Assembly: GCF_040537815.1 (NCBI RefSeq)
Contig: NZ_JBEWSZ010000001.1
Coordinates: 3,224,001 to 3,288,000, forward strand
DNA: 64,000 nucleotides
From: Mesorhizobium shangrilense
GTDB lineage: Bacteria > Pseudomonadota > Alphaproteobacteria > Rhizobiales > Rhizobiaceae
Direction: 5' to 3'
Under the pieces are notes generated by a model, which saw only the letters and a program-made list of their open reading frames with translations, was not told where the DNA came from and did not search any database. Below, piece by piece: positions 1,044-28,567 of the stretch. The translations under genes and the position numbers were made by a program. Within the stretch, counting starts at the first letter, position 1. Each line of letters starts with the position of its first letter.

Positions 1044-2408
1044 TCAGGCGCTCGCGCGCAATTCCGGCTCCGCCGAAATCTCTTTCTCGAAAGCGCGAAT
1101 GCCGGCGGTGAACGACTCTATCAGTTCCTCGATTTCCGCCTCGCTGATCGTCAGAGGAGGACAGACCATCAGCCACTCTCCAAACGAACCGCCGGCGGTG
1201 CGCCGGGAAAACAGCAGCAGTCCATGGTCGCGGCAGATCATTCCTATCCGCTCGCTCGCCCGCATCTCTGCCGGGAACGGTTCCTTGCTTACCTGGTCTG
1301 CGACGATCTCGACGGCCATATGCAGTCCAAGCCCGCGAATGTCGCCGATGATGCCGGTCTTGCCTTTGATTTCTTCCAATCGGGACCTGATCAGCGCGCC
1401 CAGGGTCCGCGCTCGCTCCATCAGGCCGTCCTCCTCCACGACCTGAAGAACCATGTCGGACGCAGCGCAGCTGACGGGATTGGCCGAGTAGGTATGGCCG
1501 TGCTTGAAGCCGCCCGAACGGCGGACATCCTGGACCATATCGGCTGACGCCAGGACCACGCCAAGCGGGGCATACGAGCCGCTGACACCCTTGGCGAGCG
1601 TGACGATATCGGGCCGGCAATCCAGCCAGTGATGACCGGCGAGAAACTTGCCTGTCCTCCCGGCACCGCTCATGATCTCGTCATAGATCAGCATGACGCC
1701 GTAACGGTCACATATCTCGCGGATGCGGGTGGAATAGCTGTCTGGGGAAACCAGGGCTCCAGTCGACACGCCGCCGATCGGTTCGATCATGAAGGCGAGG
1801 ATGGTTTCGGGGCCTTCCCTGAGGATCGTTTCTTCCAGCTGCCGCACACAGCGGTCGACGACATCCTGTTCACTTTCGCCGGCCGGGCGCCGATACATCA
1901 GCGGCGCGTCAATCTTTGGCATTTCGACAAACATCGGCCTGTAGGCTGCCGCATAGTCGGGGTCGCCGGTGATGCCGAGAAGCGCCGTCGTCGCACCATG
2001 ATAGGAAGGGATGCGGCTGATGATCTTGAAGCGTGATGCCTGGCCCCGCGCCACCGCCACCTGACGGGCGAATTTGATAGCGGCCTCATTGGCCTCAGAA
2101 CCGCCGGAGACGAAGAAGGCGGCGCCATAATTCCAGTTGCTCAAGCGCTCGAGCCTCGCGGCCAACCGCTCATTGGGGTCGTTGTCCCATCGCATGCTGT
2201 GCGCGTAGATGATGCGGTCCATCTGGTCGCGCATCGCTTCGAGCACCCTGGGGTGGGCATGGCCGACATTGACCGAAATGGCGCCCGACGATCCATCCAG
2301 CAGACGGCGACCGGTGCTGTCCCAGATATAGACGCCTTCACCGCGGACGACCTTGGGGAATTCCTTCGTGCCTTCGGGCGTGATGAAATGCTGATAGCGC
2401 AGTGTCAT
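1044..2408 (-). CDS. Class III PLP-dependent aminotransferase
   Basis: The 454-residue length is normal for class III omega-aminotransferases. The signatures are SGGSEANEAAIK (about 101-112), the SYHGAT segment (135-140), the cofactor aspartate in YDEIMSGAGRTG (D243) and the Schiff-base lysine in TLAKGVSG (K273). It transfers an amino group from an amine or omega-amino acid to a keto acid in the cytoplasm. It follows the TetR gene by 37 bp in the same direction, so it is probably co-transcribed with the importer at 3.3-6.0 kb. The imported compound may therefore be an amine or amino acid. Exact substrate cannot be read from sequence. Confidence 0.9.
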   Translation of the reverse strand: MTLRYQHFITPEGTKEFPKVVRGEGVYIWDSTGRRLLDGSSGAISVNVGHAHPRVLEAMRDQMDRIIYAHSMRWDNDPNERLAARLERLSNWNYGAAFFVSGGSEANEAAIKFARQVAVARGQASRFKIISRIPSYHGATTALLGITGDPDYAAAYRPMFVEMPKIDAPLMYRRPAGESEQDVVDRCVRQLEETILREGPETILAFMIEPIGGVSTGALVSPDSYSTRIREICDRYGVMLIYDEIMSGAGRTGKFLAGHHWLDCRPDIVTLAKGVSGSYAPLGVVLASADMVQDVRRSGGFKHGHTYSANPVSCAASDMVLQVVEEDGLMERARTLGALIRSRLEEIKGKTGIIGDIRGLGLHMAVEIVADQVSKEPFPAEMRASERIGMICRDHGLLLFSRRTAGGSFGEWLMVCPPLTISEAEIEELIESFTAGIRAFEKEISAEPELRASA

Positions 2409-2445
2409 GAGTATCCTCGCACTGTTGCCTGCGGGGCGGGTCTTT

Positions 2446-3267
2446 TCAGGACCGCTTGGCAGGGTAAGAGAAACCGTTGAGTGGGGAATTCGCCGTCAGC
2501 AGCTTCGGGTCGGGGTCAGAGCCGAACAGCATCCGATGGCGCGTGAAGGCCAGGAGTTCCGCCACGTGCTCGTCATTGCGCGGATCGTCGGGGAACGCCG
2601 CGCCAAAAATCTCGTCGACATAGATACGGGTCATGATCTCGTCGGCAAACGCACTCGTTGCGTGCCCGATGAACCGGTCGAAGGCCGCGGGGACCGGCTG
2701 CTTCGCATGATCCCTGGCGATGGCCGAGAGTATTTCCGCCCATTGGGCCGTCAGCCTCAGCCAGACCGCGTTGGCATCCGCATCCTGCCGCTTCATCTGG
2801 AACAATGATCGAAAGAACATCCGGCGGCGGCGGAACGCTCCCACGATTTCGATGAACGTCGCCTTCATCTGGGAGAAGAGGTCGACAAATTCGTCGCCTT
2901 CGGGAATTGCCGGCGCGATATCGACCGCGGCGAACTCCGAGAAGACCTCAAGCACCAGGTCGCGGATGCTGTCGAAATGCAGGTAGAATGTTCCTGCCGC
3001 GACCTTTGCCTTTCCGGTGATCGAGCCAATTGTGAGGCTGGCAAGGTCGCTTTCCGTCAAGCAATCGAACGCCGCCCGCTTCAGTTTTGCGCGCGTCCGC
3101 GCGCTCTTGCCTTCGCCACCCGCGCCTTTGATCTGCGCATTCAGGGCGGCGACGTAGCGATCACCCAATGCCAGATGAGGTCCGGTGGAGCCTGCTTGGC
3201 CCTGACTTGGCGGGGTTCGAACCGGCGAGGCGCTTGGCGCGTTGTCATCCGTCATCTCGTCCCCCAT
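2446..3267 (-). CDS. TetR family transcriptional regulator
   Basis: The 273-residue protein carries an N-terminal TetR helix-turn-helix at about residues 57-100, including the segments LASLTIGSITGKAKVAAGTFYLHF and FDSIRDLV, preceded by an unusually long, disordered, Ser/Pro/Gly-rich leader of about 40 residues. The C-terminal half is helical and should bind a ligand. The ATG at 3267 overlaps the stop of the ABC ATPase gene (TGATG). A second ATG at 3255 has the better ribosome site (GGGGGA just upstream) and may be the real start. Being inside the operon, it is likely to control it, and the perfect palindrome at 6072-6105 is the obvious operator candidate. Confidence 0.88.
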   Translation of the reverse strand: MGDEMTDDNAPSASPVRTPPSQGQAGSTGPHLALGDRYVAALNAQIKGAGGEGKSARTRAKLKRAAFDCLTESDLASLTIGSITGKAKVAAGTFYLHFDSIRDLVLEVFSEFAAVDIAPAIPEGDEFVDLFSQMKATFIEIVGAFRRRRMFFRSLFQMKRQDADANAVWLRLTAQWAEILSAIARDHAKQPVPAAFDRFIGHATSAFADEIMTRIYVDEIFGAAFPDDPRNDEHVAELLAFTRHRMLFGSDPDPKLLTANSPLNGFSYPAKRS

Positions 3268-4142
3268 CAGGAAGCCGCCGCGAGGAGCGTGCGGTCAGGC
3301 AGTGCCTCCCCGACCAGTCGCTCGAATTGACGGGCGAGCTCGGTGAGGTCGAGGGCAGCTTTCTTTTCGCCCGACAGATCCATCACCACCTTGCCGCGAT
3401 GCATCATCAGCACTCGATCAGTGTGGCTGAGTGCATGACCAAGATCATGCGTGACCATGACTGTCGTGATGTCTTGTGCGCGCACGATCTCCTCGGTTAC
3501 GTCGGCCACGACTTTCGCACGCTTGGGATCAAGCGCCGACACGTGCTCATCCAGCAGCAGAACGCGCGGATTGCGGACTGCAGCCATCGCCATCGCCACT
3601 GCCTGGCGCTGCCCTCCGGAGAGAGTGCCCGTGGATTCACCGAGCCGATCTTCCAGCCCCATGCCAAATCGCTGAAGCGCGCTTTTTGCGGCCACCCGCA
3701 CCGCGTCGCGATCATATCTGCGAAGACGGAAGGCACGCTCCCTTCCCATCACTGCCAATGCGAAATTCTCCTCGATACTGAGCGAGGAAAGCACGTTGTG
3801 CTCGGGGTTCTGGCGAACGAGCGCAATCTTGAAAGCCCTCTGCCACGAGGGCTTTTCGCTCATATCCTCGTCGTCGATATGCAGGGATCCCTCATCAAGG
3901 AGCAATGTCCCCATGAGGATTGAAAGCAGGGTGGACTTGCCAGCGCCGTTGGAGCCGATCAGTGCAACGTAGGAACCGCGTGCGACATCGATGGTCAAAT
4001 CATCCAGCGCGGTGAAGACTTCCTTCTTGCCAAGGCCTGCAAAACGCTTCGTCGCGTGGCGAAGCCGTATGGCAGGTGAATCGATAGCTTTGCGTCGCTC
4101 AGAGAAGGGTGGTGACACGATCGTTCTCCAAGAATTGCACAT
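3267..4142 (-). CDS. ABC transporter ATP-binding protein (PF04392-type importer)
   Basis: This is a 291-residue ATPase with Walker A GSNGAGKST (63-71), signature LSGGQRQ (174-180), Walker B VLLLDEH (194-200) and a switch histidine in VMVTHDLGHAL. The last Walker B residue pair is DEH rather than DEP. It overlaps the permease gene by 44 bp if the ATG at 4142 is used; a GTG at 4118 would shorten the overlap. It energises the permease encoded upstream. In other bacteria this three-gene arrangement, with a PF04392 binding protein, is annotated as an amino-acid-like or tryptophan importer (TrpXYZ), but the substrate here is unknown. Confidence 0.9.
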   Translation of the reverse strand: MCNSWRTIVSPPFSERRKAIDSPAIRLRHATKRFAGLGKKEVFTALDDLTIDVARGSYVALIGSNGAGKSTLLSILMGTLLLDEGSLHIDDEDMSEKPSWQRAFKIALVRQNPEHNVLSSLSIEENFALAVMGRERAFRLRRYDRDAVRVAAKSALQRFGMGLEDRLGESTGTLSGGQRQAVAMAMAAVRNPRVLLLDEHVSALDPKRAKVVADVTEEIVRAQDITTVMVTHDLGHALSHTDRVLMMHRGKVVMDLSGEKKAALDLTELARQFERLVGEALPDRTLLAAAS

Positions 4143-5059: not shown

Positions 5060-6025
5060 TCAGTAGGTTTTGACTGCTGAGGTCATCATAGTCGCGGGGA
5101 TCTTGAGCCCCAAGGCGTCCGCCTCGGTCTTGTTGATCTCGAAGCCAGCGATCTTGGGAATGATGACCGGTGTCGTGGCGGGGTTGGCGCCCTTCAGCAC
5201 TGCCACCACAAGGTCGGCCGCCCTCGTTCCAACAGTCACATAACTGTAGCTGCCAGCCAGGATCGCGCCACCCTTGACCGCATCGGACGTGCAGCCGAAC
5301 ACTGGAAGCTTGGCATCCTTGGCGACCTTCAGCGCTCCTGCCATGCCAGAGATCGTTGTCGTGTCACAGGGAAACTCGATTGCCTGAACGCGTCCCACAA
5401 GCGATTGTGCCGCCTGGGTGGTTTCGCCGGCATTGGCGATACCCGCGGTGACGTGCTTCAAACCCTTGCCTTCGATGTGCGCTACGGCGCGCGCTGCCAG
5501 CGGATCACCGGCGGGGTCGCCAACCTTATAGATCAGGCCGATGGTCTCGATCGTCGGCAGGATGCTCAGCATGCCGTCGATTTCCGATTCAACAGGAAGA
5601 GGATCCGAAACGCCCGTCATGTTGCCGCCGGGCTTTTTGAGGGACTGAACGATGCCCGCCTCGACGGGTGTCGACACGCCGATAAACACTACCGGAACTG
5701 TCTTGGTCGCCTGCTGTATGGACTGAGCCGCGGCGGTGCCAATGACCACGATGAGATCGCAGCCACCGCTGGCAAATTGCTGCGCGATCGTCTGTTGTGT
5801 CGCGGCATCAGCTTCGGGGTTCTGGATATTCTGGACGATCTTTTCGCCACCCGAGGCCTTCAGGCCGTCGTTCATCCCTTTCAGGATGTCATCAATGACA
5901 GGCGCCGACGCATATCTGTTCACACAGACTGTCTTGCCGGAAAGCGCAGCATCCTCCGCCTTAGCGGCCACTGCGGAAGCGAAAGTCAAACCTGCAACCG
6001 TCGACAGTGCGATCAGTGACTTCAT
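5060..6025 (-). CDS. ABC transporter substrate-binding protein, PF04392 family
   Basis: The 321-residue protein begins with a Sec signal peptide (MKSLIALSTVAGLTFASAVA, probably cut after AKA). The mature part has the PF04392 features: VIGTAAAQSIQQAT (about 95-108), the VFIGVSTPVEAGIV segment, GGNMTGVSDPLPVE and the C-terminal VGTRAADLVVAVLKGANP. It captures a small molecule in the periplasm for the permease encoded next to it. It is the first gene of the minus-strand operon, and its promoter region carries the 34-bp palindrome at 6072-6105. Family members are often labelled tryptophan or tyrosine binders, but only on indirect evidence. Confidence 0.9.
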   Translation of the reverse strand: MKSLIALSTVAGLTFASAVAAKAEDAALSGKTVCVNRYASAPVIDDILKGMNDGLKASGGEKIVQNIQNPEADAATQQTIAQQFASGGCDLIVVIGTAAAQSIQQATKTVPVVFIGVSTPVEAGIVQSLKKPGGNMTGVSDPLPVESEIDGMLSILPTIETIGLIYKVGDPAGDPLAARAVAHIEGKGLKHVTAGIANAGETTQAAQSLVGRVQAIEFPCDTTTISGMAGALKVAKDAKLPVFGCTSDAVKGGAILAGSYSYVTVGTRAADLVVAVLKGANPATTPVIIPKIAGFEINKTEADALGLKIPATMMTSAVKTY

Positions 6026-24435: not shown

Positions 24436-24649
24436 TGGCCGCCCTCCCCTGAAGTCTGCGCGTCGCTATGCCGGGACGTGCAGCCGCGCACCTTTGATCC
24501 GGCCAGCATGAACTCGGCAGATGTGCGTGACCGGTCGTGGCTTCCGGATCCGCATCCGCCCCCTCCTGCCGGCGTTCTGCGCGTCCGTCTTGAGCGCTTG
24601 GCCCACGGCTGCATGAGGCGATGCTAATCCATTTAAGCGCGCTGCGCCA

Positions 24650-24657
24650 GAAGCGGC
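24650..24657. repeat. Target-site duplication, left copy
   Basis: GAAGCGGC directly precedes the left terminal repeat and is repeated exactly at 28130-28137 after the right terminal repeat. Eight-base duplications fit IS1-family transposition. Confidence 0.9.
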
Positions 24658-24676
24658 GGTAGTGTCTCAGTTTGAA
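24658..24676 (+). repeat. Left terminal inverted repeat
   Basis: GGTAGTGTCTCAGTTTGAA, an exact reverse complement of 28111-28129. The GGT start resembles the ends of IS1 relatives. Identity stops after these 19 bases. Confidence 0.93.
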
Positions 24677-24724
24677 TAAGGCAGCCCTCGACACGGCGCT
24701 CGCCCTCCCCATACCGCGCATGGT

Positions 24725-25039
24725 ATGCTTAGCGCCATGCAGGAGTCGCCGCGAGAAAAACCAAATGAACCGATCATCACGCGCGACGCTTCAGGCGCTT
24801 GGCGCAAGGATGGGAAGATAGTGCATTGGTACGGTGTGCATCTCAGACGGTGCTTGGATGACGGCACGAAAGAGACACTCGAATCCTGGACCTTGTGCGG
24901 GACCGACGTGGACGAGACGAGGGGCGCTGCCATTCAAATCCTAGAAGGGCGCAGGTCCAGTGTCGGAGCCGATAGTTTAGCAATGGAAGAGCGCGGTGGC
25001 GGCCTTGTTTGGGAGTATCCTGATGCCAACCGGACCTAA
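24725..25039 (+). CDS. Hypothetical small protein, element cargo
   Basis: The 104-residue protein is mostly hydrophilic and I do not recognise a family. It has a tidy beta-rich middle: ITRDASGAWRKDGKIVHWYG, then LESWTLCGTDVDETRGAAIQI. An in-frame ATG at 24737 would remove four residues; neither start has a clear ribosome site. It lies 48 bp inside the left end of the mobile element and overlaps the next small gene by 17 bp, which implies co-translation. It is probably cargo with an unknown role linked to the P63C or NYN proteins. Confidence 0.55.
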   Translation: MLSAMQESPREKPNEPIITRDASGAWRKDGKIVHWYGVHLRRCLDDGTKETLESWTLCGTDVDETRGAAIQILEGRRSSVGADSLAMEERGGGLVWEYPDANRT

Positions 25040-25253
25040 AGGCCAGAAGCGCCCCGCCGATGTTATCGGCAATGCCGTCCGCGTCATGCGCATTGCCACC
25101 GGCGAGGAAGCCGACGACGTGATTGACGATGGCAAAGACCCCGCCGCAAAAGCGCTTGGTGCAAAAGGCGGGAAGAAGCGCGCCGAGAACATGACGCCGG
25201 AACGGCGCGCCGAGATCGCAAGGAAGGCTGCGGAAAGCCGCTGGAAGAAATAG
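25023..25253 (+). CDS. Small basic protein with RAENMTPERRAE-ARKAAESRW motif, element cargo
   Basis: The 76-residue protein starts at the ATG at 25023, seven bases after GGGAG. Residues 1-22 (GPKGQKRPADVIGNAVRVM) are a conserved head seen in many small rhizobial proteins. The tail GAKGGKKRAENMTPERR then ARKAAESRWKK is basic and helical. Nearly the same tail motif occurs at the N-terminus of the P63C protein encoded convergently three bases away. Proteins with this tail are sometimes labelled RNA-binding, but the evidence I can see is only charge and shape. Confidence 0.65.
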   Translation: MPTGPKGQKRPADVIGNAVRVMRIATGEEADDVIDDGKDPAAKALGAKGGKKRAENMTPERRAEIARKAAESRWKK

Positions 25254-25255
25254 CC

Positions 25256-26329
25256 CTATCTGTTGGGCGGCGGATATGGCAGCGGCAGCGAAAACTGAAC
25301 CATTCGTCTGCCGTAGTGTTGCGCTACTTTGTCTCGAAGCTCACGCATGTTTACGCACGTCTTCGACATACCGATCACCTCGTAGCACCTCGATACGAGC
25401 GCGCGAACACCGAGATTTTCAGTCAACTGACGATGCCACCTTACGCCCGGAGGTGGCTTATTGTTTTTCAGGTACTCTGCGACATCATCGTCCAGCGTGT
25501 CGTAGATCATTTCGATCACAAGCTTGCCCCACCACTTCGGCCGGCTATGAAGCGAACCGCTCCATCCTGTAAGCCGGCCAAATTCGGTCCATAGCTCATC
25601 CGGGAAAGTCTTTTCCCAAGCACGCAATTCATCGGCGATAAATGCCCGCAGCTTTACCTGTAGGGCATCCTCGGCGCGTTCATACTGATAGCCAGTAGCT
25701 TCATCGATCAGCGCCTCGAGGCCGATCTTGGCGCACGCGGAAAGAAACATGCTGGCCTTGATCGCCATTTCTCGCTGGCGATCCGTCATCTTGGGAAAGG
25801 GCGAATTTGGGTCAAACGAGGATTGAAGCGCCGCAACAAAACCCTGGCACACTTCGATCATCAAATCGGCCGGCAGACCCTTCACGGCTTTCTCGAGACC
25901 TTCGACCTCGAGCAATCTAAAGGGCACCATTCTCTCGAGAACTAAGCCGCTGTTTATAAACGGTTCTAGTGCTTTTACCCCCAGATATTTCTCGAGCGCT
26001 CCACCGCCCTTAATGCCGGTGAGAAGTTCGGTGGCCGAAGTTCGCCCAATGATCTTTTCGCCGGTATCAAGAACGTAGCAAGGCACCTCGAGACCGACGA
26101 TATTCAGTGTCCCTCGCCACCTCGCAATTGGCATTGCAGGCTCAGGTGCAATTACATCATCGTCCGCCGGAATCGTCTCTTCCGCCGCGCTCTCTTCTCC
26201 AATTGGCTTAGCCCACCGGGCAAGAGCAGCCTTTCGAGCGCTTTCGGCCCTTTCTTCTGGAGTTAGTGCTTCAGCTCGAGCGAACCCACCTCGAGCTTTG
26301 GCCTCGTTCTTCTCGTCATCCTCAGTCAT
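25256..26329 (-). CDS. P63C domain-containing protein, element cargo
   Basis: The 357-residue protein starts at the ATG at 26329, six bases after GGAG; upstream in-frame ATGs lack a ribosome site. Residues 9-40 hold ARGGFARAEALTPEERAESARKAALARW, split here as ARGGFARAEALTPEER and ARKAALARWAK. The middle has VPCYVLDTGEKIIGRTSATELL. The C-terminal 100 residues match the P63C domain: DELWTEFGRLTGW, RPKWWGKLVIEMIYDTLDDD and RWHRQLTENLGVRALVSRC. P63C proteins occur in mobile and phage-like regions, with no known activity. It is divergent from the transposase across a cluster of palindromes. Confidence 0.85.
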   Translation of the reverse strand: MTEDDEKNEAKARGGFARAEALTPEERAESARKAALARWAKPIGEESAAEETIPADDDVIAPEPAMPIARWRGTLNIVGLEVPCYVLDTGEKIIGRTSATELLTGIKGGGALEKYLGVKALEPFINSGLVLERMVPFRLLEVEGLEKAVKGLPADLMIEVCQGFVAALQSSFDPNSPFPKMTDRQREMAIKASMFLSACAKIGLEALIDEATGYQYERAEDALQVKLRAFIADELRAWEKTFPDELWTEFGRLTGWSGSLHSRPKWWGKLVIEMIYDTLDDDVAEYLKNNKPPPGVRWHRQLTENLGVRALVSRCYEVIGMSKTCVNMRELRDKVAQHYGRRMVQFSLPLPYPPPNR

Positions 26330-26339
26330 CCGAATCTCC

Positions 26340-26427
26340 ATGCGTGCATAATGCAGGCATATTGCACTTGTCATTTGCACGCACAAGCGAAATTATGCGT
26401 GCATAAATCTGATTCTGGTGCACGCAT
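26340..26427. promoter_or_regulatory. Cluster of ATGCGTGCAT-type palindromes between P63C and transposase genes
   Basis: Four copies of one motif sit in 88 bp: ATGCGTGCAT at 26340-26349, TGCACGCA at 26376-26383, TTATGCGTGCATAA at 26393-26406 and TGCACGCAT at 26419-26427. The third is a perfect TTATGC-GT-GCATAA dyad. The first overlaps the region just upstream of the P63C start and the last abuts the transposase -35 box. The spacing suggests a shared operator that controls both divergent genes, perhaps bound by an element-encoded protein. Confidence 0.6.
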
Positions 26428-26460
26428 ATGCTTGACACTAAGCATAAAGGTTCAGATATT
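26427..26460 (+). promoter_or_regulatory. Probable transposase promoter inside an inverted repeat
   Basis: A consensus TTGACA -35 box (26432-26437) is followed after 17 bases by GATATT (26455-26460), a fair -10. The -35 box overlaps an inverted repeat TATGCTT (26427-26433) / AAGCATA (26440-26446). The predicted start point falls at or next to the ATG at 26467, so the message would be leaderless or nearly so, a plausible way to keep transposase low. Confidence 0.45.
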
Positions 26461-26466
26461 AGGGGC

Positions 26467-27351
26467 ATGAACAAGCTGCCCCTGAAAACCCGCGTCCAAA
26501 TCCTCACCATGCTTTGCGAGGGTTCTTCCATGCGGTCGATCTCCCGCGTTGCCGACGTGTCGATCAACACCGTTTCGAAGCTTCTGGTCGATGCCGGCAA
26601 GTTCTGCGCCGAGCTGCACGACCGCGAAGTCCGCAACGTGAAGGCCAAGCGCGTCCAGTGCGATGAAATCTGGAGCTTCACGGCAGCGAAGCAAAAGAAC
26701 GTTGCGGCGATGAAAAACACCGTCGAAGGCGCTGGCGACACGTGGACATGGACCGCGCTCGACAGCGACAGCAAGCTTATCATTTCCTGGCTGGTCGGCG
26801 GTCGCGATGGCGAATACGCGCTGGCCTTCATGGATGACGTGAAGGAACGCCTTGCCAATCGCGTCCAGCTTACGACAGACGGCCACAAGGCCTATCTGAA
26901 CGCTGTCGAGGAAGCCTTTGGCGCCGACATCGACTACGCCATGCTGGTCAAGATGTATGGTGAGCCGGAAGGCAAGGCAGTGCCACAGGAACGCCGCTAC
27001 AGCCCAGCCGTATGTACTGGCGCAAAGAAGACCCGGATTGAAGGCTCGCCCGATCTGGCGCATGTCAGCACGTCGCACGTCGAACGCCAGAACCTTACCA
27101 TGCGCATGCAGATGCGCCGCTTCACGCGTCTCACGAATGCGTTCTCAAAGAAGTTCGAAAACCACGTCCACATGGTTGCGCTGTACACTGTCTGGTACAA
27201 CTTCATTCGCATTCATAAGACGCTGAAGACCTCACCGGCTATGGCCGCTGGCGTGTCTCAGACGCTCTGGTCAATGGACAATATTTGCGAGAAGATGGAT
27301 GCAGTTGCACCCAAGCCGGGGCCAAGGGGGCCTTACAAAAAAGGGGCGTAG
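26467..27351 (+). CDS. IS1-family transposase (single frame)
   Basis: The 294-residue protein has an N-terminal helix-turn-helix (LPLKTRVQILTMLCEGSS, then RVADVSINTVSKLL) and an RNase H-like DDE core. Acid residues are visible in VQCDEIWSF, LTTDGHKAYL and the IS1-typical HVERQNLTMRMQMRRFTRLT. The rear WYNFIRIHKTLKTSPAMAAG also matches this family. Unlike classical IS1, there is no programmed frameshift between two frames. An AGGGGC precedes the ATG at 26467; an in-frame ATG at 26428 would lie upstream of the promoter. It should cut and join the 19-bp ends of this element. Confidence 0.9.
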   Translation: MNKLPLKTRVQILTMLCEGSSMRSISRVADVSINTVSKLLVDAGKFCAELHDREVRNVKAKRVQCDEIWSFTAAKQKNVAAMKNTVEGAGDTWTWTALDSDSKLIISWLVGGRDGEYALAFMDDVKERLANRVQLTTDGHKAYLNAVEEAFGADIDYAMLVKMYGEPEGKAVPQERRYSPAVCTGAKKTRIEGSPDLAHVSTSHVERQNLTMRMQMRRFTRLTNAFSKKFENHVHMVALYTVWYNFIRIHKTLKTSPAMAAGVSQTLWSMDNICEKMDAVAPKPGPRGPYKKGA

Positions 27352-27361
27352 AAAAGGAAAA

Positions 27362-27416
27362 CCCCAGTCGCCGGCTAAGCCTGGCGCTGGGGCTGTCGTG
27401 CTGAGAACAGCACGAC
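27362..27416 (+). terminator. Two consecutive strong hairpins after the transposase gene
   Basis: Hairpin 1 pairs CCCCAG/CTGGGG and CGCC/GGCG (27362-27392). Hairpin 2 pairs GTCGTGCTG (27395-27403) with CAGCACGAC (27408-27416), nine perfect pairs round AGAA. There is no long T-run, so they may instead protect the message end or shield the NYN gene from transposase transcription. Confidence 0.5.
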
Positions 27417-27462
27417 GTTGTAACCGTTAGGTATCCCGCAATTGAGCCAGATTCAAGACCCA

Positions 27463-28107
27463 ATGCCCCCAAAAAGGGCTGCTTTTTATTTCGACGGGTT
27501 CAATCTTTATCACCCTGTACACGAAATGGGTGAACCATTTATGAAATGGTGCAACCTGTGGCGGTTGTCTGAGATTCTATGTGCCCCAAACGGCCTCGAT
27601 TTGAAAAAGGTCGTGTTTTGCACCGCGATGCCTTTTCACAAGCCCGACTCACTGGGACGCCATAGGACGTTCAACAACGCGCAAATAGCTTGTGGCGTTA
27701 CCGTGCTAGAGGGGCACTATGTCTTCAATGAGGAGCTTGGTCGACATTCCGAAAAACAGTCGGATATTAACGTCGCCCTATCCCTCATGATGGATGCGGT
27801 AGATGACGTTTTCGACTGGGCATTTCTGGTCAGCGCTGATTCCGATCAAGCGGCAACAGCCAGAGTTTTGAAGGACAGATATCCGGATAAAAAATTGGCG
27901 CTGGTGGCTCCGCCAAATCGCAAGCCGCCAGACAAGGCCCTCCCGTATTCAGACCTCGATTTCTCGATTCGAAAAGAGGATATGGAGCGGGCTTTGCTGC
28001 CCAATTTCGTCAAGTCATTGGATGGGCGCTTCATTCGGCGGCCACTTGAATACGACCCACCAAAATGGTGGATGCCACCAGATCAGAGACCGAAGCGGAA
28101 GCGCTAG
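27463..28107 (+). CDS. NYN domain (PIN-like) protein, element cargo
   Basis: The 214-residue protein has the NYN/LabA-like fold. RAAFYFDGFNLYH near the start holds the first acidic residue, KQSDINVALSLMMDA carries the second, and DWAFLVSADSDQAA the third and fourth. The C-terminus is basic (RPKRKR). NYN domains are related to PIN nucleases and usually cut RNA. Start is uncertain: ATG at 27463 or TTG at 27442, neither with a clear ribosome site. It ends three bases before the right terminal repeat, so it travels with the element. It lies 111 bp after the transposase, separated by two hairpins. Confidence 0.82.
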   Translation: MPPKRAAFYFDGFNLYHPVHEMGEPFMKWCNLWRLSEILCAPNGLDLKKVVFCTAMPFHKPDSLGRHRTFNNAQIACGVTVLEGHYVFNEELGRHSEKQSDINVALSLMMDAVDDVFDWAFLVSADSDQAATARVLKDRYPDKKLALVAPPNRKPPDKALPYSDLDFSIRKEDMERALLPNFVKSLDGRFIRRPLEYDPPKWWMPPDQRPKRKR

Positions 28108-28110
28108 AAT

Positions 28111-28129
28111 TTCAAACTGAGACACTACC
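28111..28129 (-). repeat. Right terminal inverted repeat
   Basis: TTCAAACTGAGACACTACC, exact reverse complement of 24658-24676, followed directly by the second GAAGCGGC copy (28130-28137). Confidence 0.93.
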
Positions 28130-28567
28130 GAAGCGGCGAATCCGGCGACGATGGCCTCCTTGCCGCGAAGGAAGACTGCGAGGATCGTTTGCCGCAGGTC
28201 CTCGCCGGCGATCGGCTTGTGCAGAGCCCGACGAGCAGCCGCTCCGCGACGATTTGGGTCAGAATCAAAATCTCGCCACTTGCCTCGGCAAGTTGCAGCA
28301 GGAGTGCGCGCACCGAAGTGCTTGGGGGCTTGGGCGCTCACCGTAGCGTCTAAGCCAAGTGTTGCGGATCACTCGCGCCAACTCACGGAAATGTCGGAGT
28401 TATTTTGAGACAGCTAAAATACCACGAAACAGGGGCGGACTGGCAGGCCTCGAAGACGTGCCCGCGATGTTAATTTCATTGATTTTTTGTGGGCCAATAT
28501 CAAAATCCCCCCGCATTGTTCCGTATGGTTTCGCTATAAGGCCATTTGCGGCATGTACTGGCGCTCA
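28130..28567. other. Gene-free flank between the element and nasA
   Basis: This 438-bp stretch begins with the right target-site copy GAAGCGGC. The open frames here are short, lack ribosome sites and resemble no family I know. A minus-strand frame crosses the right junction and, if the element is removed, continues into the left flank for some 50 codons. It has no recognisable domain, so I cannot tell whether a gene was broken. Confidence 0.4.

Follow-up and report, generated by a model that had tools for sequence, protein, structure and literature searches.

Classical insertion sequences (IS) of the IS1 type consist of transposase genes only, arranged as two overlapping frames that are joined by a frameshift; single-frame members exist, and the ends of the family begin with GG and are flanked by duplications of 8-9 bp. 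Tn7-like elements are larger and employ several transposition genes. We take the nearest IS1 subgroup to the element described below to be the single-frame, ISMhu11-like one, some members of which are long. Transporter IS with passenger genes are already known, as described for ISNha5 of the IS1595 family (PMC11891212, PMC9330008). According to PMC7157771, toxin-antitoxin passengers occur in 39 of 190 Tn3 elements, where they lie near the transposition genes and were acquired repeatedly and independently; PMC8649781 describes defence genes as cargo of Tn7-like transposons. Here we analyse a stretch of 64,000 nucleotides from Mesorhizobium shangrilense (the window), in which an element of 3,472 bp (24658-28129), delimited by paired ends, an 8-bp duplication and a transposase, carries genes for a P63C-domain protein and a NYN-domain protein. 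We conclude that this element is probably a member of a group of compact IS1-type transposons, a kind of transporter IS present mainly in Alphaproteobacteria, which move one or two exchangeable cassettes that are favoured for defence or addiction.

The family resembles ISNha5-type transporter IS in that IS ends and a transposase enclose passenger genes, but its transposase is closer to IS1 than to IS1595, and it has a near-constant small gene (sm2), two cargo slots and recurring defence-type cassettes. With the ISMhu11-like subgroup the window element has in common a one-frame DDE transposase, GG ends and an 8-bp duplication. In contrast to classical IS1, a stretch of at least 1,151 bp separates the left end from the start of the transposase in 89 of the 90 elements that we collected. 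Toxin-antitoxin cassettes recall Tn3; however, nearly all elements of the present family carry cargo, their transposase is of the IS1 type, and no resolvase occurred among their Pfam-named genes. From Tn7-like transposons the family is set apart by its size of 1.3-4.7 kb and its single transposase.

The boundaries given in a preliminary description of this DNA are all present in the sequence. The left terminal inverted repeat, GGTAGTGTCTCAGTTTGAA (19 bp, 24658-24676, forward strand), is matched by its exact reverse complement on the right (28111-28129, reverse strand), a pair that ranked first in the repeat listing of the region, and exact 8-bp copies of the target GAAGCGGC flank the element at 24650-24657 and 28130-28137. 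The element thus has the GG-starting inverted ends and 8-9-bp duplication of the IS1 family. When the joined flanks were used as a query against 119 genomes, 34 gave a partial or better match, and 12 same-genus regions were chosen for alignment because they matched near the junction. Eleven of these align across it with one copy of the target, exact in three (L170, L173, L174) and with 1-3 changes in eight; L180, a region from another family, aligned to the left flank only. The empty-site comparison proposed in the preliminary description therefore succeeded for the left junction and the single target copy, whereas the proof on the right is short, since the relatives reach only 3-15 bases into that side and conservation of the right flank ends after 15 bases.

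Elsewhere, a Mesorhizobium genome holds a shortened sister copy of 1.15 kb (L178) that retains sm2 and the end of the P63C gene between ends with 1 and 2 mismatches, and that is flanked by a different duplication, GCCCGAGC. A further Mesorhizobium has a left-end remnant (L179). With ends and duplication enclosing the P63C and NYN genes, an empty site in relatives and a shortened sister copy at another locus, the window element fits the description of a transporter IS, the view of it as one transposing unit is upheld, and mobility of the whole unit is close to certain. The expectation that multiple copies would share the same five genes was not borne out, as the full set was present at no other locus examined; the nearest gene set (L104) combines sm2 and the transposase with a P63C gene of 32% identity and another kind of NYN protein. 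As to the insertion site, where relatives such as G016 and G035 have the genes of both flanks on a single contig, these lie widely separated, so that an older rearrangement may have taken place there. Reading by eye the alignment around window positions 24600-24657, we saw in some relatives a tRNA-like sequence about 80 bp beyond the empty site, and the insertion target may lie near a tRNA gene.

The transposase (26467-27351, forward strand) occupies an uninterrupted open frame of 307 codons that opens at 26428, with nothing of the frameshifted two-frame layout of classical IS1. Its match to PF03400 (DDE_Tnp_IS1) scores 26.2 bits, just above the cut-off of 24.1, and its NCBIfam IS1 match 67.4 bits, under the equivalog cut-off of 100; against the IS1595 model it failed, with 18.9 bits for a cut-off of 75. 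Among 21 aligned transposases, all 21 matched the IS1 model and seven the IS1595 model, and residues D79, D151 and E219, presumably the catalytic triad, were invariant. Taken together, the narrow Pfam pass, the subthreshold NCBIfam score, the model counts and the invariant DDE residues indicate a divergent single-frame IS1-type enzyme, which agrees with the earlier assignment and places it on a divergent branch. A search of 50,697 phage records returned a single match, an unannotated relative of the transposase with 33.6% identity in the large Brevundimonas phage vB_BpoS-Gurke (ON529850.1:174791-175666).

A start at 26467 is more likely than one at 26428 because the first 13 codons of the longer frame coincide with a conserved promoter (26428-26460, forward strand), composed of TTGACA (26432-26437), a 17-bp spacer and GATATT (26455-26460). 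Given this spacing, transcription would begin at or adjacent to the ATG. A palindrome, ATGCTT-GACACT-AAGCAT, extends across the -35 box (26428-26445). In the 83 of 90 elements whose transposase start could be placed by its first residues, CTTGAC occurs within the 70 bases upstream in 54, against 0.95 expected from shuffles; the best -35/-10 pair starts at -35 in 54, and the palindrome is present with at most two mismatches in 24. The promoter forms the left border of the conserved transposase block and is retained when the adjoining cassette is replaced.

To define the family, the window transposase was searched against the genomes of 199 relatives, with matches in 78, many of them fragments, and in a survey of 385 genomes across the class (the window's genome included), with matches, fragments among them, in 52. 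In a further scan, with each species represented by a single genome, there were at least 566 confirmed stretches, and the best 80 among them were retained. We then inspected 119 loci for ends on either side of the transposase, accepting pairs that agreed at 14 or more of 19 positions and were flanked by an exact 8-bp duplication; 88 loci qualified. Removal of four same-locus repeats and two doubtful cases, and addition of eight clear-ended elements lacking an exact duplication, gave a set of 90. Hence 82 of the 90, the window's element and 81 non-redundant others, have paired ends with an exact duplication. Lengths range from 1,342 to 4,708 bp (median 3,293), and the usual end reads GGTAGTG(TC/GG/CA)TCAGTTTGAA, with variants. 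Since the set was collected by likeness to the window transposase, it is uninformative on other branches of IS1. The one element in which the transposase starts nearer the left end, L065 (G021:C1:718000-733000), is a 1,342-bp internal-deletion copy resembling a miniature inverted-repeat transposable element; it retains sm2 and a portion of the transposase between perfect ends and has an exact 8-bp duplication. Relatives L144, L148, L129 and L137 come from metagenome-assembled genomes of Nitrospirales, Acidobacteria and Gammaproteobacteria; the family may reach past Alphaproteobacteria, or these bins are mixed.

As judged from sequence comparison, the core shared by these elements is shown to comprise the two terminal repeats, sm2 near the left end and the single-frame DDE transposase, preceded by a conserved promoter of its own. 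The sm2 gene (25023-25253, forward strand, within an open frame of 24996-25253, the ATG at 25023 being the more likely start) encodes a basic protein of about 76 residues with the C-terminal stretch GGKKRAENMTPERRAEIARKAAESRWKK; a basic protein of this kind (~77 residues) is present in 85 of 90 elements. A search of 61 genomes gave 24 further sm2 matches in 22 places, and 20 of the 24 had a family end in the fetched flanks. Overlapping its start is a small open reading frame of 104 residues, sm1 (24725-25039, forward strand), found elsewhere among the loci tested only in the remnant L179. The count of four cargo genes must accordingly be amended: P63C, NYN and sm1 are extra to the core, but sm2 is a near-constant part of it.

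Between and beyond these core genes lie two slots, the first from the sm2 stop to the transposase -35 box and the second from the transposase stop to the right end. Aligned with eight close relatives, the window element is alike at element positions ~364-590 (sm2) and again from 1767-1771 onwards (promoter and transposase), and its last 31 bases also match in two of the eight. In L036 the likeness covers 364-602 and then 1768-3472: transposase and NYN are kept at 88% while the slot-1 cassette is different. This alignment shows that slot 1 can be changed while slot 2 stays. The P63C cassette by itself (element positions 608-1748) is present in another Mesorhizobium (L177) at 82% identity, and the fetched 6.5 kb there contain neither a family end nor the transposase. 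On a transposase tree of 89 tips, 79 with classified cargo, parsimony required the first-named cargo class to change 46 times or more, a count made without a shuffled control. Transposase pairs of 80% identity or more in which both cargos had been classified numbered 64, and 21 of these had a cargo class in common. For example, transposases that are 94.7% identical (L073/L076) accompany k10-12 genes in one element and a ClpP-like protease in the other; at 90.4% (L127/L133) the cargos are PD-lambda-2-like and Bro-N, and at 87.2% (L093/L100) k10-12 and P63C. The cargo is exchanged and not fixed. The k10-k12 genes are a recurring reverse-strand set that occupies slot 1 in L094, L073, L093 and L125; k11 of L094 had no Pfam or PADLOC match and k10 no PADLOC match.

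Many of the exchanged cassettes are shown by their matches to fall into anti-phage or toxin-antitoxin families. Pfam was run on 38 distinct proteins of the relatives (39 scans), 17 of which had no match at 0.05. Among the others were helix-turn-helix-plus-IrrE/ImmA peptidases, a HigB-like toxin, Panacea, Abi_2 (below cut-off), an AbiEii-like AAA protein and AAA_16, as well as ClpP-like, Bro-N, NYN, dCTP deaminase, trypsin-like (Nal1_C), DUF2335 and Rap1a proteins. PADLOC was run on 20 proteins from cassettes or the core, including three of the window's own, and matched seven at 1e-10 or better: RmrA twice (397 and 403 bits), RmrT (93), PD-lambda-2_B (115), HEC-04 (164), HEC-09 (104) and PD-T4-5 (44). 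None of ten flanking host genes, taken from a script-drawn list of twenty, matched at the same limit. The relatives' cassettes thus include RosmerTA, PD-lambda-2-like, AbiF/PD-T4-5-like, Panacea and AbiEii-like genes. RmrA is reported as the ImmA-type antitoxin of RosmerTA (PMC10440598). In L145 a HigB-like toxin gene (PF05015) lies directly 5' of PD-lambda-2_B, the order reported for PD-lambda-2 (PMC9519451), and the third gene of this set had no PADLOC match. Anti-phage action has been described for a RosmerTA and for PD-lambda-2 (PMC10440598, PMC9519451); it is the relatives' cassettes (RmrA, RmrT, PD-lambda-2_B, HigB-like toxin) that match these systems, not the window element's own cargo.

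When the PADLOC-matched proteins and two near relatives (L087, L098) were compared by tblastn with all 90 elements, RmrA was found in 15, PD-lambda-2_B in 13, Abi_2 in five, an AbiEii-like gene in three and the window-type NYN in two. A defence-type cassette is present in 36 elements (union), in 42 when Panacea is included and in 52 when P63C is included as well. Defence is likely to be a usual role of the family's cargo. Other genes seen in this context are a full-length two-domain dCTP deaminase gene as slot-2 cargo (L099:7924-9198) and, in an Acidiphilium relative, a RES-domain toxin with an MbcA/ParS/Xre antitoxin (L032:5922-6760), at and just past the right end at 5939.

Slot 1 of the window element holds the P63C gene on the reverse strand (25256-26386, PF10546 78.9 bits over residues 246-330); a start at 26329 is more likely because the database copy has 357 residues. 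A weak fold match suggests that a Bro-N-like N-terminal fold possibly precedes the P63C domain. Its upstream region contains an operator-like array of four 8-mers reading TGCGTGCA/TGCACGCA (26341-26348, 26376-26383, 26396-26403 and 26419-26426). At least two GCAAGC/GCTTGC words occur in ten other P63C elements, and upstream of the 14 P63C genes such words number 37, where base shuffles would give 2.4. In three of four phages examined, the P63C gene lies directly 3' of a cI-type repressor gene; rexAB follows cI at the corresponding position in lambda. P63C is probably an autoregulated DNA-binding protein.

The NYN protein of slot 2 (27442-28107, forward strand) scores 19.6 bits with PF01936, under the cut-off of 24.2, and 104 bits with HEC-09 over residues 11-203. 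Its acidic residues D108, D133 and D135 are invariant and D18 nearly so among 28 aligned sequences, and together with the HEC-09 match they place it among the NYN nucleases. It has 269 homologues, the best, in Mesorhizobium sp. PAMC28654, at 93%. Two hairpins (27362-27417, forward strand, z -4.85) separate it from the transposase.

P63C was detected in 14 of 90 elements, and in 13 of these the transposase is followed by 500 bp or more, as against 20 of the 76 others (Fisher p 3.7e-6; 1.7e-4 at a limit of 300 bp and 2.6e-7 at 600 bp). After correction for relatedness, a mean of 4.3 of 10 pairs pointed in the same direction and 0.1 in the opposite one (median p 0.125), and the association between P63C and slot 2 is suggestive only. 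Slot-2 genes accompanying P63C are NYN (two kinds), Abi_2 (two, 45% identical), dCTP deaminase, DUF2335, unnamed genes and a Panacea-like gene with 30% identity to a tested Panacea. Because of this excess of slot-2 sequence in P63C elements, we tentatively propose, while allowing that the idea may well prove wrong, that a fixed chassis of ends, sm2 and transposase with two plug-in bays constitutes a dedicated minimal defence vehicle. P63C in bay 1 would be the promiscuous control module of an unnamed class of two-part defence systems, autoregulated and possibly a Bro-N-like sensor, combined with interchangeable bay-2 effectors (NYN RNase, Abi_2-like, Panacea-like, dCTP deaminase, DUF2335 membrane protein). 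That the P63C and NYN pair itself acts in defence is a reasoned guess.

The preliminary description had also suggested that the cargo helps retention of the element or controls transposition. Retention would follow if the cassettes were maintenance modules, toxin-antitoxin-like units that stabilise the transposon by a 'take me or die' principle, with phage defence as a by-product. Many of the recognised cassettes are toxin-antitoxin-like and slot 1 abuts the transposase promoter, and for Tn3 transposons a maintenance idea has likewise been argued (PMC7157771). Yet the transposase retains that promoter on a cassette swap, the dCTP deaminase, ClpP-like and trypsin-like protease cassettes are not toxin-antitoxin genes, and RosmerTA and PD-lambda-2 have anti-phage activity according to the reports cited above, which makes this reading unlikely in our judgement. 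Control of transposition receives little support, because exchange of the adjoining cassette leaves the transposase with its own promoter. Its specific form would be that P63C serves in some elements as a transposition repressor that binds both an array of the TGCAAGCA type and the palindrome like it across the -35 box of the transposase and so silences the latter, with NYN as a hitch-hiker. The possible Bro-N-like DNA-binding fold, the operator-like array between P63C and the transposase and the half-site ATGCTT in the transposase promoter would suit such a role; but the array here reads TGCGTGCA/TGCACGCA alongside an unaltered promoter palindrome, five of the 14 P63C genes are not divergent to the transposase, and 76 of 90 elements have no detected P63C, while CTTGAC precedes the transposase in the majority counted above. 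We regard this repressor role as quite improbable. That the cargo is random DNA, trapped between two end copies without selection for function, might be argued from its high diversity, its partly nameless genes and the many transposase fragments; it is very hard to reconcile with gene-sized cassettes with open frames, with the recurrence of a few families across transposase lineages (RmrA 15, P63C 14 and PD-lambda-2_B 13 of 90) and with the absence of PADLOC matches from the ten flanking host genes.

Several observations weigh against cassettes favoured for defence or addiction. No PADLOC-type or Panacea cassette was found in 48 of 90 elements, and several hold ClpP-like or trypsin-like proteases, dCTP deaminase or unnamed genes. 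The PADLOC inputs were chosen after Pfam and were not random, and the control comprised ten genes. In the 76 elements without P63C, too, the operator word is enriched before the transposase (25 against 9.7 in shuffles). The element is present once in the window's genome, giving no sign of recent activity there. None of 29 other NYN loci in the 385-genome survey, one of them in the window's genome, had a window-type transposase in the fetched flanks of ~1.5 kb. The NYN family is therefore not tied to the element and, as these loci are distant (at most 45% identity), the gene was probably captured, not born in it. Finally, the window's own cargo belongs to no validated anti-phage system, as P63C had no PADLOC match and NYN falls into HEC-09, which we take to be a candidate family only. 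The earlier notion of a defence-like unit stands at the level of the family, through the PADLOC matches of its cargo, and for NYN through its candidate family.

On the favoured reading, the transposase would bind the ends, insert the whole unit and generate the 8-bp duplication, and the element would persist and spread as its cassette protects the cell from phages or addicts it. P63C would bind DNA at specific sequences, repress its own promoter by way of the four-site array and serve as a sensor or effector of exclusion, with NYN as the RNase effector. Homologous recombination in the conserved blocks of sm2 and the transposase would be enough to account for cassette exchange.

In conclusion, our literature search yielded no account of an IS1-type lineage that joins defence-type cassettes to a fixed chassis, and a lineage of this type that shuttles defence-like cassettes looks like a new form of transporter IS. 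A chassis of 2-5 kb with conserved ends is a simple means by which individual defence cassettes could pass from one replicon or lineage to another. Its ends and sm2 may be used as bait, and the unnamed cassettes in its bays, P63C first, are candidates for new anti-phage systems. Furthermore, the family provides a testable case for how insertion sequences become transposons.

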